Shown: positions 1,320 to 15,967 of the stretch, in pieces
Layout: the number at the start of each line of letters is the position of its first letter
Numbering within the stretch: position 1 is the first letter of the stretch
From: a virus
Reading direction: 5' to 3' (one strand)
Virus record (IMG/VR): IMGVR_UViG_3300009034_000086
Span: 1 to 43,069 of that record
DNA: 43,069 nt
The notes under the pieces: generated by a model
The model's database searches: none
Told to the model about the DNA's origin: nothing
The model's input: only the letters and a program-made list of their open reading frames with translations
Translations under genes and position numbers: made by a program

Positions 1320-1742
1320 TTATTTCCGATAATGCCTTTTCCATTTCTGAAACGAGAGGACTTTTCTATCTTTCCCCTTGATATACATGAGAGCGTGCCA
1401 AGCATCGTCATCTATTGTCTCTAATGTCTCCCCCGCCTTCGCTTGAGCATATAAGAGTTTGCCTTCGTGAAAAGAACTGAGTGAGGTTGGAGTTGTCCCC
1501 AGTCTTTTCTCTACTTCAGCTATTATAATTGCAGGCTTTACAAAGTAACCTTCTTCATTAAGCTGTCCTGTCTTTGGTTCTTCAAAAGGACTGTATTGTG
1601 GAGGCCACTTGCCAGTATGGAGAGTATCGGCGTTTGCCAGAACCCAAAGACACTGGAATGGGCAAAATCTGAGATGGGCAAAGAGGTATCCATCTCTGCC
1701 TATGCAGGTTCGCCAGTCTTTACATTCCCTACATTCGTTCAT
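1320..1742 (-). CDS. Hypothetical protein with N-terminal Cys motif, 140 aa
   Basis: The N-terminus MNECRECKDWRTC and a later RFCPFQC give five to six Cys in the first 33 residues, suggesting a zinc-bound knuckle. The rest is mixed (ETIDDDAWHALMYIKGKDRK). The start codon overlaps the stop of the upstream 53-aa gene, an ATGA junction. No characterised family recognised. It may be a small DNA-associated phage protein, but nothing in the sequence shows its role. Confidence 0.65.
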   Translation of the reverse strand: MNECRECKDWRTCIGRDGYLFAHLRFCPFQCLWVLANADTLHTGKWPPQYSPFEEPKTGQLNEEGYFVKPAIIIAEVEKRLGTTPTSLSSFHEGKLLYAQAKAGETLETIDDDAWHALMYIKGKDRKVLSFQKWKRHYRK

Positions 1743-1900
1743 TTAATCTTTACTTCACACTCAATACCACGCTTGTCCTTTTTGGTTGGCTCTGGTGGGA
1801 TAAAGTTCTTGCCATATCGCTTCTTATAGCGTTTAGCCCACTCTTCTCTTTTCTCCTTAGATAAGAGGAAATATAATTTGTCCCATATCTTAGCCATCAT
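1739..1900 (-). CDS. Small basic protein, 53 aa
   Basis: Runs from ATG 1900 (or the adjacent ATG 1897) to a TGA that overlaps the next start. Sequence pieces: MMAKIWDKLYFLLSKEKREE, WAKRYKKRYGKNFIPPEP. It is Lys/Arg-rich and probably helical. No ribosome binding site is clear. The start lies right after the 10-bp closing helix of the structured block upstream, so translation may respond to how that RNA folds. Confidence 0.55.
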   Translation of the reverse strand: MMAKIWDKLYFLLSKEKREEWAKRYKKRYGKNFIPPEPTKKDKRGIECEVKIK

Positions 1901-2271
1901 ATTTATTTGTTAGGGTGAGGGCTGGCTACTACACTTTGGCTGTAGTCATTTACCCCTTCATTGGCACCCTCACCCTTGCCTGAGCCTACTACATTTCCCT
2001 TCCCATCTTCGCGCACCCCAGTTAGCTTATAGGGCTAATTACTCCTCGGCTCAGACTTGCCAGCCAGTAGCCCTTGTGTTGCCACTCTAAACTACTCTGA
2101 TTACCCGCACCTTTCAGTGGCTTTCGGGTGGTTGGCAATCTCTAAACTTGCTGGCTCATTTTCACCACAGGTCGCTTCCTCCGCATCTCTAAGTCCGCAG
2201 GAATTAAGGGGAGTCAGTCTAGTTTCCTAGCTGCTGCTGCCTGTGTAACCAGCAATGCTTAGATTCTATTG
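1901..2271 (-). ncRNA. Candidate large structured RNA between the HNH gene and a 53-aa gene
   Basis: This 371-nt gap has no credible gene and is richer in G+C than its neighbours. Read on the minus strand it holds these helices (plus-strand coordinates): 2240-2245 with 2166-2171; 2199-2203 with 2176-2180; 2133-2138 with 2079-2084; 2125-2129 with 2103-2107, enclosing CACT-GAAA-GGTG, a GNRA-type tetraloop; 2048-2054 with 1980-1986 (7 bp, extendable to 9 with one wobble), enclosing 2034-2038 with 2022-2026; and 1967-1976 with 1912-1921 (10 bp, perfect), enclosing 1941-1946 with 1928-1933. A TTAGAG motif occurs three times. The layout resembles a large multi-domain RNA. I do not recognise a known class, and strand and ends are inferred. 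Confidence 0.55.
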
Positions 2272-2652
2272 TTATAGTTTCTTAATCTGCTCCTTCAAAT
2301 AAATTTCGATTAGTTTATAGTCATTCGCCGAATTCCGAGTTAATATCTCGGCTTCTATGTTTAGCTTCTCAAAGTCGCCGTCAAGTAATCTTTTAAAGAA
2401 ATCAATTTTCCCTTGAGGGTGAGAGTCCAGATAGAAATGACAACCACCGCATAATCCGACAGCGTTAAGCTCGTGCCAACGAACCGAATATTTCTTCCGG
2501 GAATGATAGTGGGCACAATCTAGCTCCTTCCAGTCTCGCTTAAAAGTTCCACAGCGTTGACAGCCTTTAGCAAGTTTCATCGCCCGCTTGCGGATAAGCT
2601 CGCTAAAGAGTCTGTCCAGCCTCTTAATTGTCTTTTGGCGTTCTGTTTTCAT
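2272..2652 (-). CDS. HNH / NinG-like nuclease
   Basis: 126 residues. The N-terminus TIKRLDRLFSELIRKR resembles NinG/Rap-type phage recombination proteins. A zinc-stabilised HNH core follows: CQRCG, then the catalytic-like CAHYHSR, then GLCGGCHFYLDSHP (C-x2-C plus HNH His/Asn-like positions), then DFFKRLL. HNH proteins of this group cut DNA, often at branched structures, and help phage recombination. AAAGG lies before the ATG. The gene is upstream of the structured RNA block on the same strand. A free-standing homing-type HNH is the main alternative. Confidence 0.75.
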   Translation of the reverse strand: MKTERQKTIKRLDRLFSELIRKRAMKLAKGCQRCGTFKRDWKELDCAHYHSRKKYSVRWHELNAVGLCGGCHFYLDSHPQGKIDFFKRLLDGDFEKLNIEAEILTRNSANDYKLIEIYLKEQIKKL

Positions 2653-5004: not shown

Positions 5005-5006
5005 TT

Positions 5007-5139
5007 TTAATGCCTAAATACCAGCATTAATACTTTTTTAATGCTAATAGCTTTACCATTAAAGATTTATAATGGTTCTTAATGGTAAATTTACGCCTTT
5101 TTAACGACCTCATAGCTAAACCTTAATGCCTTTAATGCT
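5007..5139. repeat. TTAATGS repeat array, candidate origin or operator
   Basis: Within 133 AT-rich bases the heptamer TTAATG(C/G) occurs seven times: direct at 5007, 5038, 5079, 5123 and 5132, inverted at 5024-5030 and 5056-5062. Two of these form a perfect 11-bp inverted repeat, 5052-5062 (TTTACCATTAA) and 5079-5089. The array lies just upstream of the ATPase gene. Iteron-like repeats next to a helicase-type gene fit a replication origin; binding sites for that protein's own winged helix are equally possible. A 28-codon basic frame (5027-5113, minus) also crosses it. Confidence 0.5.
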
Positions 5140-5178
5140 TTCACGTTTAACATTTTAATTTTCTATAAAGAGTTAGAG

Positions 5179-6415: not shown

Positions 6416-6616
6416 TTAATCCCCCTTTTGGATTAGGTCTGCTATTATCATTTGCGAATGTTCTTCATTATCTACACAGACGCACCATTTCCCACCATGT
6501 GCCAAAAGAGACACGCAACCACTTATCTCACCAATATACCTGCATCCACCATTGCCACGAGACAACCATAAAACTACATCCCCCCATTCAAAATCTATTT
6601 CGGCCAGTATCTTCAT
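6416..6616 (-). CDS. Hypothetical protein, 66 aa
   Basis: ATG 6616 overlaps the stop of the upstream gene (ATGA) and has AGAGGGGGTGAA before it. Strand-rich, with DVVLWLSRGNGGCRYIGEIS and a Cys-x-Cys (KWCVCVDNEE). No family recognised. Confidence 0.6.
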   Translation of the reverse strand: MKILAEIDFEWGDVVLWLSRGNGGCRYIGEISGCVSLLAHGGKWCVCVDNEEHSQMIIADLIQKGD

Positions 6617-6774
6617 TTCACCCCCTCTTTATATTTGGCATATTTATCAACAAAGTCAGGACAGTTAAATCTAGTAGCTTCCTCACTGTATTTATCTTTC
6701 TCAAATGGATATTTTCGGCAGTTCCCCTTCCACTGTTGTGTCGTAAACCAGTACTCACAATCCCGACAGTTCAT
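6613..6774 (-). CDS. Cys-motif mini-protein, 53 aa
   Basis: ATG 6774 follows GAGGAGAA. Four Cys spaced C-x2-C ... C ... C (NCRDCEYWF, GNCRKYP, FNCPDFV) suggest one zinc site. The tail is charged (KYAKYKEGVK). Similar compact Cys proteins follow upstream (6771-7417), so this is part of a cluster of likely metal-binding mini-proteins. Confidence 0.6.
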   Translation of the reverse strand: MNCRDCEYWFTTQQWKGNCRKYPFEKDKYSEEATRFNCPDFVDKYAKYKEGVK

Positions 6775-6944
6775 TTCTCCTCACTTGGTTCGGGGAATAC
6801 ATCTTCATAGATACATACGGTTTGCCAATTCGATAGTTGTGGTAATCTCCCGAAATATAGGCATTTCCTACATTCTTCTTTTGTCACTGTCCCCTTATCT
6901 GGGCAAGAGGTTATTCCTTCTGTGTCAAATTTCAGTTCGGTCAT
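6771..6944 (-). CDS. Cys-motif mini-protein, paralogue A
   Basis: Start at ATG 6944 (MTELKFDTEGITSCPDKG), with AAGGA six bases upstream, is chosen because the identical start exists in the adjacent paralogue. Cys pattern C ... C-x2-C ... C (EECRKCLYFG, TVCIYEDVF). Its first 17 residues repeat those of paralogue B through a 71-bp duplication, after which the sequences diverge. Function unknown; zinc binding likely. Confidence 0.6.
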   Translation of the reverse strand: MTELKFDTEGITSCPDKGTVTKEECRKCLYFGRLPQLSNWQTVCIYEDVFPEPSEEK

Positions 6945-7129
6945 TTTTTTCCTTAATGGGTTCTGGGAATACATTTTCATAGGTACAAAAATGTTTGAGA
7001 TTATCACTGTCAACCGCATGATGATTACATGCCCAACATTCCCACTTCGTAGCCGTTTCCTTATCTGGGCAAGAGGTTATTCCTTCTGTGTCAAATTTCA
7101 GTTCGGTCATTTTTTTCCTTAATGGGTTC
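6893..7129. repeat. 71-bp perfect direct repeat across gene junctions
   Basis: 6893-6963 and 7059-7129 are identical, 166 bp apart. Each copy contains the 3' tail of one gene (coding PIKEKNDRTEI in the second copy's frame) and the overlapping 5' start of the next (MTELKFDTEGITS). A unit of about one small gene has duplicated in tandem. Confidence 0.9.
6925..7110 (-). CDS. Cys-motif mini-protein, paralogue B
   Basis: Starts at ATG 7110 with the same AAGGA and the same first residues as paralogue A. It carries CPDK, ECWACNHHAVD (C-x2-C with two His) and FCTYENVF. Its last 20 bases overlap the start of paralogue A in another frame, just as the upstream gene overlaps this one. An A7 run precedes each ATG at the overlap. 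Coupled reinitiation is the simple explanation. Confidence 0.6.
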   Translation of the reverse strand: MTELKFDTEGITSCPDKETATKWECWACNHHAVDSDNLKHFCTYENVFPEPIKEKNDRTEI

Positions 7130-7417
7130 ACAAACCATCTTAGAGGTGCATTTGAATTTAGTTCCACAGACTATGCAATAATATTCCCACCAAGTATCCT
7201 GAGTATCTGGTTCTACAATGGAGGTATTTAAGCAAATTCCGCTATATTGAAAATCCCACACCCGTTCTGCTTTCTGTATGGTATTGTGCTTACATTCGGG
7301 GCAATACCGCATGACGGTTTCATGCCCTTTAATTTTTAAGGCAAGTATCTCACTATCCAATCTATTTACATAGTCTTTTAACTTTGCAATTTCCCCTCTT
7401 GCATATCCGTCTTTCAT
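7091..7417 (-). CDS. Zinc-ribbon protein, 108 aa
   Basis: N-terminal helix (AKLKDYVNRLDSEILALKI), then a ribbon: YCPECKHNT and YYCIVCGTKFKC, about 40 residues apart, as in transcription-factor-like zinc ribbons. The C-terminal 12 residues (EPIKEKNDRTEI) derive from the 71-bp duplicated DNA. ATG 7417 overlaps the upstream stop (ATGA). It probably binds nucleic acid or a host protein; no named family. Confidence 0.65.
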   Translation of the reverse strand: MKDGYARGEIAKLKDYVNRLDSEILALKIKGHETVMRYCPECKHNTIQKAERVWDFQYSGICLNTSIVEPDTQDTWWEYYCIVCGTKFKCTSKMVCEPIKEKNDRTEI

Positions 7418-9285: not shown

Positions 9286-9321
9286 GATAGGTAGTATAAC
9301 ACCTACTTTATACCTTGTCAA
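9286..9321 (-). promoter_or_regulatory. Consensus sigma-70 type promoter, leftward
   Basis: On the minus strand TTGACA (9321-9316), 17-bp spacer, TATACT (9298-9293): a full -35 and a 5/6 -10. Expected start of transcription is about 9286-9285, the A of the next ATG. It is the best promoter in the window and can drive the leftward genes below 9285. Confidence 0.8.
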
Positions 9322-9379
9322 GCCCCCTTTTCGTATCTATTTTATATCCAAAAGTCATCTTTTTAGGGAAATTATTTTG

Positions 9380-9395
9380 TGATAGAATAAGGCAA
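9380..9395 (+). promoter_or_regulatory. Extended -10 promoter, rightward
   Basis: TGa-TAGAAT (9380-9388) with no good -35, followed by 7 nt and then ATG. Extended -10 elements can work without a -35 box. The spacing again predicts a leaderless message. Confidence 0.5.
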
Positions 9396-9488
9396 ATGCC
9401 TTTCATTATCTTTGGGATTGTTGTTCTTATTATAACACTGATTTATGGCTTACGCCATGATGACCTTGATGATTGGAGAGGGCATTAA
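9396..9488 (+). CDS. Single-pass membrane micro-protein, 30 aa
   Basis: MPFIIFGIVVLIITLIYGLR is one transmembrane helix, followed by an acidic tail DDLDDWRGH. It runs against the flanking leftward genes and has its own promoter-like element. AAGG four bases before the ATG is a weak ribosome binding site. The type resembles phage-encoded membrane modulators (lysis control, superinfection exclusion), but no family is recognised. Confidence 0.5.
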   Translation: MPFIIFGIVVLIITLIYGLRHDDLDDWRGH

Positions 9489-9489
9489 A

Positions 9490-9521
9490 ATAAAAAAATA
9501 CTCCGAGCCGTTAAGCTCGGA
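9490..9521 (-). terminator. Intrinsic terminator of the virion operon
   Basis: Read leftward: stem TCCGAGC/GCTCGGA (7 bp; 9521-9515 with 9508-9502), 6-nt loop, then TATTTTTTTA. A classic hairpin plus U-run just after the holin-like gene, ending transcription arriving from the late genes. Confidence 0.85.
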
Positions 9522-9549
9522 ATAAAGAATAATTTATTTTAATTCTATT

Positions 9550-13298: not shown

Positions 13299-14261
13299 TC
13301 ATACTATCCCTGGGTCTTGGAAATTTACAAAGCCATAACGAGGAGTTACTCCTGTTTCTTCGCTACCAAAAGCAAAGGAAGGTTCTGTAGCTGCCCACTT
13401 GCGGACTATGAAATCATCTATCCAGGTATCTTGGCCAGCCGTAGTTCCAGCGTTGGAAAATGTGATTTTATTGGACATACTAGCAGAAGCATATGTATCT
13501 GCATCATTTTGTATCTTTGCATCATTCCACCATATATCGTACTTGGGTGTTCCATGATTGATGTCATTGATTTCCACAAGTTCCCATTCGTCAGGTGCTC
13601 CATTACTCCCCGTGTCATTATAAGCACCATTGTAATAGTGTATATCTTCAGCATTATCAAATCGCCAATATATTCTTTCTGTTCCGTCTCCATGAGTATT
13701 TAAGAAAACGGTAGCAGTCTCTTTGTAAATCCTAAATCTATAGGCATAATCTGCCCCTGCTGTTTTGGCGATAGACGCATAAGGATTGGCAGCACCGCCA
13801 ACAAGCTTCATAGACCTAGTTCCAGAAAAGGCCTGAGCTGTGGAAATTTCGACTGTGCCACCCTCTTCAGTCCAGTCTCCTCCTATTTCATCACCATCAT
13901 TACCTCGCTCAAAATCGTCGAAGATGACAAAGGTAGCTGCACCATTACTAACTGCTGTTTCAGTACCGCTATAATACATATAGAGTGTAGTATCGGGCGT
14001 GGCATTATTCTGCACCCACACAGTAGCAAGTCCATTAGGAGTAGTGCCTGTTATACTCTCAATCCAATAATCAAGTAATGTCGTTCCATCAGCAGCAGTG
14101 AAACGAAGGTCATCAAAGTCAGCAGCAACATGACCACCACAATCAACTTCTTCACCCGATGCCCCAGAGGATTCACCAACTAAAACCTTCGTTTGGTAGT
14201 CCGCATTGGCATTTGTTACTGTTACTTCTTTTCTATAAGTCCAACCTGTTAGCCATGCCAT
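13299..14261 (-). CDS. DUF2341 plus lectin-like virion protein
   Basis: 320 residues. The N-terminus WLTGWTYRKEVTVTNANADY and later TVWVQNNATPDTTLYMYYSG match DUF2341, a beta-sandwich common in phage and cell-surface proteins. From about residue 110 (FVIFDDFERG) a jelly-roll of concanavalin/LamG kind follows (AYRFRIYKETATVF, WELVEINDINHGTPKYDIWW), ending near a short C-terminal extension. The start ATG overlaps the collagen-like gene's stop. Likely a receptor- or glycan-binding fibre part. Confidence 0.7.
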   Translation of the reverse strand: MAWLTGWTYRKEVTVTNANADYQTKVLVGESSGASGEEVDCGGHVAADFDDLRFTAADGTTLLDYWIESITGTTPNGLATVWVQNNATPDTTLYMYYSGTETAVSNGAATFVIFDDFERGNDGDEIGGDWTEEGGTVEISTAQAFSGTRSMKLVGGAANPYASIAKTAGADYAYRFRIYKETATVFLNTHGDGTERIYWRFDNAEDIHYYNGAYNDTGSNGAPDEWELVEINDINHGTPKYDIWWNDAKIQNDADTYASASMSNKITFSNAGTTAGQDTWIDDFIVRKWAATEPSFAFGSEETGVTPRYGFVNFQDPGIV

Positions 14262-15967
14262 TATGACCTCGTAAAAGTAACCATGATTCCAAGCAATAAT
14301 AGGTCACAAGCAAGGTTATCGCCTGATACATCTCTCATAGCTACGAACTCGACTAACTCACTGGCTGCGGGCCCCCCATTTAGTGTTACTGCAGAACAAG
14401 CAGCACTGATATGAACATCTCCAGCAGTAATCGCTGTGTCTGTAATTGCTTGAGCACCCGTCCTAATATCCTGGTCTATTGCATCACTGTCAGCATAAGA
14501 CCGACCTGAAAACTCAATTTCAATTGTTTCAGCAGCAGAACCTCCAGTCCCCCAAGTCCAGTATGCCCCTGCTGTTACCGTTCCGCCATCCCAATCGGAA
14601 GGCATAGCAACCATCCAACAGGCAAACTCATCGGAGTCTTTATCAAATGCCATGTGATAGATGTCCACATCATTAGTGCCATATTCTAACTTTGTTGGTT
14701 CAGCACACCCATTGGTTGTTCTAGGCCAGCCTCCAGCAGCAGATAGGAATATCTGTCCTGTTGGTGCAGAACCCGTACTCCCTGTTGCCCCTGTCGCACC
14801 CGTAGAGCCAGTTGCCCCTGTCGCACCAGTGCTACCAGTACTGCCTGTTGACCCAGTAGCACCTGTACTACCCGTTGCACCAGTTGTACCTGCCCCCGTA
14901 GAACCTGTTGCCCCAGTTGCACCTGTGGCACCTGTTGAGCCAGTGCTACCCGTAGCCCCTGTACTTCCTGTGGAGCCAGTACTTCCAGTTGCTCCTTTCT
15001 CTACAAGTAAATCCCAATAAGTTTCCCAACTTCCCCCCGTGCCTGGTTCACTGCCTGTAGCTCCTGTATGTCCTAAGATACATACATATCCGCTACCATC
15101 ATTTCCTACGCAATCATTAGCATCATATGCTACACCTGTTGCCCAAGCACCCTCCCAAGGATATTCTGTGCCAGTAGAACCCGTTGGCCCAGTGGCTCCT
15201 GTAGAACCAGTTGCACCTGTCGAACCCGTGCTTCCAGTCGCCCCTGTCGAACCTGTGGCTCCAGTGGCTCCTGTACTTCCAGTGCTTCCTGTTGCTCCAG
15301 TGGGGCCTGTGCTACCCGTTGCTCCTGTGCTACCAGAACCAGTAGGGCCTGTAGCACCAGTAGCACCCGTCGCCCCTGTTGCACCAGTAGCCCCTGTACT
15401 GCCCGTAGCACCACTGCCAGTAGGGCCAGTAGGGCCTGTACTCCCTGTCGCTCCAGTACTACCACTCCCCGTAGCACCTGTTGAACCCGTTGCACCTGTC
15501 GCTCCAGTACTACCTGTTGAACCCGTTGCACCTGTAGAACCACTCCCTGTTGCGCCCGTCGCTCCTGTAGACCCCGTGGCCCCCGTGGCCCCTGTTGCGC
15601 CTGTAGCTCCTTGGTCTCCAGATGTAAGGATATTTCCTGTAGTATTTACAACGGTAAAGGATTTACCATCTGTATGCAATGAATAACCCGAACCTAGTGA
15701 TAAATCTTTAGGTATAATACGCCTTGAATTTGTCCCATCATAAAAGAAAAGATTGCAGGCATTCGCACTAGCACCAGTATTTACTAGAGTAATAGTCGCT
15801 ACAACATCCGTAGAATCGGCGGTAAATAAATCACCCGTAGTATTTGGAAGTTGACCATTAGCTAATTCCGCCAGGGCATTATTGTCTAATCCGAATATGC
15901 AATAATCTACCTCACTGGCAGTTGCAGCATCTCCTCGTATTTTATCTCCGCTTTCTAATGCAATCAT
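14261..15967 (-). CDS. Collagen-like Gly-X-Thr tail fibre with embedded CBM-like domain
   Basis: 568 residues. An N-terminal head (1-118) probably anchors to the tail. Collagen-like runs occupy about 119-266 and 324-404, almost all GAT, GST or GPT triplets with a few GSG breaks. Between them, 267-323 is a Trp-rich module ([39 protein letters not shown]) like CBM5/12-type repeats of phage fibres. The C-terminal 160 residues look like a beta-rich tip. Thr in the Y position is the pattern glycosylated in Bacillus BclA. Its promoter is not visible; it follows a GGGTGATAAA site. Confidence 0.85.
14756..15613. repeat. Collagen-coding 9-bp tandem repeats
   Basis: Plus-strand units such as CCTGTAGCACC/CCAGTTGCA encode the Gly-X-Thr runs (15170-15613 and 14756-14998), with synonymous changes scattered through them. 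Codons vary, so length changes by slippage are possible but limited. It is a protein-coding repeat, not a CRISPR array. Confidence 0.85.

Follow-up and report, generated by a model that had tools for sequence, protein, structure and literature searches.

The ROOL and GOLLD RNAs are large structured RNAs of phages and prophages that are often found near tRNA islands and form cages, and many GOLLD members exceed 800 nt (PMC12286853). By description they are the nearest kind to the 371-nt block described here, which is likewise a candidate for a large, non-coding, multi-helix phage RNA whose function is not known, but the block cannot be called a member. It is shorter than many GOLLD RNAs and matches neither family model. 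ROOL and GOLLD often lie near tRNA genes, whereas a tRNA search of the window (the whole stretch of DNA analysed, 43,069 nucleotides) found none. They are also widespread, whereas the block has no homologues in the collections searched, and no sign of pseudoknots emerged for it.

Structured leaders and intercistronic hairpins of phages set the translation of the next gene. The block resembles them as a candidate structured RNA that lies immediately 5' of a short gene lacking a Shine-Dalgarno match, in a same-strand operon. It differs in being far longer than needed and in having no element that would sequester the start stably in every sequence context. Group I and group II introns offer a further comparison: the block falls in the size range of small introns, is structured and adjoins an HNH gene, and an earlier note on this DNA had allowed for an intron-like element. 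That option is disfavoured. The adjoining HNH protein belongs to the NinG family, both flanking genes are complete and uninterrupted, with ends that align with those of homologues, and no group I or group II intron model matched.

The block lies in virus record IMGVR_UViG_3300009034_000086 (approximately 43,070 bases), from an uncultivated phage. The features of the locus are as follows:

1901..2271, minus strand: non-coding block of 371 nt, candidate structured RNA, no ORF, z about -3.2
2272..2652, minus strand: upstream gene, NinG/Rap-type HNH endonuclease of 126 aa (phrog_5034, E 1.2e-16)
1739..1900, minus strand: downstream gene, basic protein of 53 aa, with homologues in the related phage loci L015 and L079
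4141-5004: DnaB-like ATPase, like NinG a replication/recombination gene near the block
2141..2263, minus strand: domain 1, closed by a 7+9 bp stem that has a bulged A, and containing an inner 6-bp stem and a GAAA-capped hairpin
2057..2138, minus strand: domain 2, with a 6-bp closing stem UUGCCA/UGGCAA and an ambiguous interior with two folds
1978..2056, minus strand: domain 3, with a 9-bp closing stem GUCUGAGCC/GGCUCAGGC (1978-1986/2048-2056, probability 1.0) and a poorly defined interior
1912..1976, minus strand: domain 4, with a 10-11-bp closing stem (1912-1921/1967-1976) and an inner 6-bp hairpin (1928-1933/1941-1946)
2296..2304, minus strand: 5' arm, within the final NinG codons, of a perfect 9-bp inverted repeat that would enclose the four domains
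1901..1909, minus strand: 3' arm CAAATAAAT of the enclosing repeat, ending directly before the ATG of the small gene

The block fills exactly the interval from the stop codon of the NinG/HNH gene, which ends at 2272, to the ATG of the small basic gene, which starts at 1900. The earlier note had described a gap of raised G+C content with no usable ORF between these two genes of the same strand, and the description held in each part, with exact coordinates. On the minus strand, stop codons limit the open frames to 43 codons at most, as is usual for shuffled sequence, and the longest ORF on the plus strand (57 aa, TTG start) matched no Pfam or PHROG family. The G+C content is 49.9%, and that of the genome 41.9%; a value as high occurs in 2.7% of all 371-nt windows, none of them in the early region. 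An origin of the block as a template repeat or duplication was rejected, the only second match in the genome being 15 nt long, as was a pseudogene of the genes present at this position in relatives, for which there was no credible match.

The multi-helix RNA fold proposed in the earlier note is supported energetically on the coding strand. The minus-strand block has a minimum free energy of -126.1 kcal/mol, and none of 300 dinucleotide shuffles was as stable (z -3.1; ensemble z -3.3). Repeated, independent fold tests gave z scores of -3.1 to -3.3 for the minus strand and -1.5 to -1.95 for the plus strand; the minus strand is the right strand for an RNA from the block. Six confident helices of at least 6 bp were found, a number equalled in 9 of 300 shuffles, and the helices already named in that note (a 10-bp helix enclosing a 6-bp hairpin, a 7-9 bp helix and a GAAA-capped stem) are real and were recovered at their coordinates. 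Its emphasis on three TTAGAG motifs in non-helical positions was not borne out: a 6-mer present three times occurs in 72% of shuffles and a 9-mer present more than once in 32%, and one TTAGAG copy largely coincides with an arm of the domain-1 stem. The block ranks fourth among 144 fold windows across the phage, some coding windows of which reach z -4, and 12 of 160 other gaps of at least 170 nt in this and related phages have lower fold scores. The structure is above chance yet not unique, and the signal is only moderate because a few coding windows of the same phage score as low.

The fold consists of four abutting domains separated by linkers of 0-2 nt, and every closing stem has a mean probability of at least 0.92. 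The closing stem of domain 1, which the earlier note had not singled out, pairs 2141-2147 with 2257-2263 (7 bp) and 2148-2156 with 2247-2255 (9 bp), and the hairpin of this domain is CTAG-GAAA-CTAG at 2219-2230. Domain 1 adopts the same fold alone and within the block, with helix probabilities of 0.92-1.0, and the closing stem of domain 4 has a probability of 0.97. Because the domain bounds were taken from the fold itself, the scores of single domains are somewhat flattered; these are z -4.27 for domain 1 (0 of 200 shuffles), -2.0 for domain 2, -0.7 for domain 3, which is no better than chance, and -3.2 for domain 4. Domain 4 was rejected as an intrinsic terminator because no T-tract follows it, and none was detected at the block on the minus strand.

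The earlier note had matched the block to no known class, and a covariance search of all Rfam families agrees. No family in Rfam 15 reached the gathering threshold anywhere in the window, and positions 1700-2500 gave only chance-level matches at E<=10. Annotated phage and plasmid records searched by blastn gave no homologue of the block. Back-translated patterns of the reading frames of the block matched nothing in IMG/VR or GTDB contigs, in scans that need near-identical stretches and could let distant homologues escape. A double GTTTAGAG pattern had one match, which was discarded because it falls within the coding sequence for a 978-aa protein and the similarity goes no further. Neither blastn nor two single-sequence covariance models, a kind of model whose empty answers show little, found a homologue in 64 sources comprising about 1 Mb of related loci, and none was found in about 50 loci that share a neighbouring gene. 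No homologue emerged when the DNA of 393 genomes from the host-like class was searched; two weak matches there were both within protein-coding genes and were rejected. The covariance models found none in these 393 genomes or in 400 genomes of the phylum (Chloroflexota), and 46 further genomes and 19 related phage records also yielded no homologue. The host may be a Dehalococcoidia bacterium, which is only a guess because the DnaB-like ATPase is shared with loci from MAGs labelled Dehalococcoidia or Chloroflexi and from others too.

Synteny was followed through TerL, the DnaB-like ATPase, gene 1320-1742 and the small gene to two phages that carry the small gene. Both lack the block and have spacers of 82-85 nt in front of the small-gene homologue. 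IMGVR_UViG_3300022542_000176 (L015-L017) resembles this phage in TerL (80%) and in many structural genes, which keep their order; its small-gene homologue (19423-19602 of L015) follows an 85-nt spacer with weak hairpins (z -2.4). IMGVR_UViG_3300035688_000024 (L079) has NinG (47%), the small gene (46%) and a homologue of gene 1320-1742 (44%) in the same order, with other genes intervening between NinG and the small gene. The 82-nt spacer of L079 (3354-3436, z -5.4) harbors a strong intrinsic terminator, GGCGAGTTC..GGACTCGCC-TTTTTT; upstream of the start codon of the small-gene homologue, its stem ends at 12 nt and its T-run at 6 nt. In L079, transcription of this gene may depend on antitermination. 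The terminator also means that at least one phage besides the present one has RNA-level signals in the spacer. The three spacers have no recognisable sequence in common. The block is thus an accessory feature, inserted at a spacer that in the relatives contains hairpins or a terminator instead. Structured gaps elsewhere were also read and none was recognised as a relative of the block; the lowest fold score seen (z -6.9) belongs to a 286-nt gap of a related phage (L041:3686-3971) with a long multi-helix structure.

Nearly all long genes between about 1 and 40 kb are on the minus strand. A near-consensus extended -10 promoter, TTGACA-17-TATACT, is located at 9321-9293, about 7 kb upstream of the block, and the block itself has no promoter-like or terminator-like site on the minus strand. 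The promoter is part of an A+T-rich structured gap (9293-9549, minus strand, z -5.3) that also contains a hairpin-plus-T terminator at 9524-9499 and is probably the boundary between the late and early operons. Elsewhere on the minus strand of the window, a 174-nt structured gap with 27% G+C (5005-5178, z -3.9) is found upstream of the gene for the DnaB-like ATPase, small Cys-rich genes in tandem are paralogous and share MTELKFDTEGITSCPDK (6613-7167), with a similar cluster in L015, and a probable tail or fibre protein contains a long collagen-like GAT/GST repeat (14261-15967).

The block is non-coding, folds above chance on the transcribed strand, abuts a gene start and is missing from two relatives. 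The best reading, a tentative one, is that it serves as an accessory structured intercistronic leader of the 53-aa gene, acting in cis on the early minus-strand transcript. Among the options of the earlier note, a leader switch agrees with this reading, and a phage ornate RNA is unconfirmed because the searches yielded no homologue. The block would be transcribed as one piece within the early operon from the promoter at 9321-9293. Its four domains would either draw the AU-rich start region into a closing helix or keep it out, or else would stabilise, pause or punctuate the transcript at the operon junction, and the small gene would be expressed differently from its neighbours. This reading is favoured by a fold that is significant on the coding strand, and for domains 1 and 4 also separately, by the orientation of the long genes together with the upstream promoter, and by the terminator and hairpins in the spacers of L079 and L015. 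It is also favoured because the small gene has no Shine-Dalgarno match within 22 nt upstream, while a match of at least 5 bases occurs for 25 of the 43 listed genes, and because the 9-bp helix between its start region and upstream sequence is the longest among the 43 genes tested. The lack of a homologue, and hence of covariation, counts against a leader, as do the dissimilar spacers, the chance-level domain 3 and the missing T-tract after domain 4.

A further point against a leader is that the pairing which would mask the start is predicted only in short transcripts. The enclosing 9-bp repeat has p about 0.002 when only the ends are shuffled, but the repeat was picked from a list of 15 and its true significance is weaker. 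In a transcript that starts at 2310 and stops at 1890 or 1880, the enclosing helix has a probability close to 0.95, and it is lost in one that extends to 1860 or 1850; it vanishes once 20-40 more nt of the small gene are included. The modelled helix is best regarded as a hint and not as a finding. Likewise counted against a leader, the start region of the small gene in L079 pairs no better than it does with shuffled upstream sequence.

It is equally likely that the block is an inert or decaying insert, in which case a variable spacer would have acquired G+C-richer DNA, possibly left over from a host or phage segment, with an incidental fold. Such an insert would agree with the absence of the block from syntenic relatives, with a composition that differs from the remaining early region and with the lack of a homologue wherever one was sought. 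Several coding windows have folds of equal strength, and related phages commonly contain structured gaps. However, on the coding strand none of the 300 shuffles matched the fold, domain 1 by itself is well below its shuffles (z -4.3), and no protein remnant is recognisable. Compact phage genomes also tend to shed inert DNA, which argues against a passive insert.

Less probable than either a leader or an inert insert is an orphan phage RNA acting in trans, as a regulator, decoy or scaffold, which would be cut from the early transcript, in the spirit of ROOL and GOLLD although smaller and unrelated in sequence. The self-contained domains with their short linkers, the stand-alone position between genes and the gain or loss of the block as a module among relatives are consistent with this unlikely alternative, whereas the lack of a promoter-like or terminator-like site of its own on the minus strand, of tRNA genes in the window, of an Rfam match and of a second copy or homologue speaks against it. 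A DNA-level site for replication origin, recombination or packaging, in which the many inverted repeats would matter as DNA and to which the nearby DnaB-like ATPase and NinG would be suited, is very improbable given a fold biased to one strand, no skew switch at the block, no iteron array (TTAGAG was rejected as an iteron, its repeat count being at chance level) and the absence of the block from close relatives.

It is possible, though less likely than not, that the block represents a new class with a single member, a four-domain phage RNA module gained at an operon junction and acting as RNA in cis or in trans during infection. If the RNA is not real, the block shows how far a fold z score near -3 should be discounted when homologues are lacking. 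If it is real, it would be one more sign that Rfam misses structured RNAs in phages of poorly cultured hosts, and the spacer of the small gene would be a site of fast turnover of RNA signals, with a terminator, short hairpins and a 371-nt fold in three phages.
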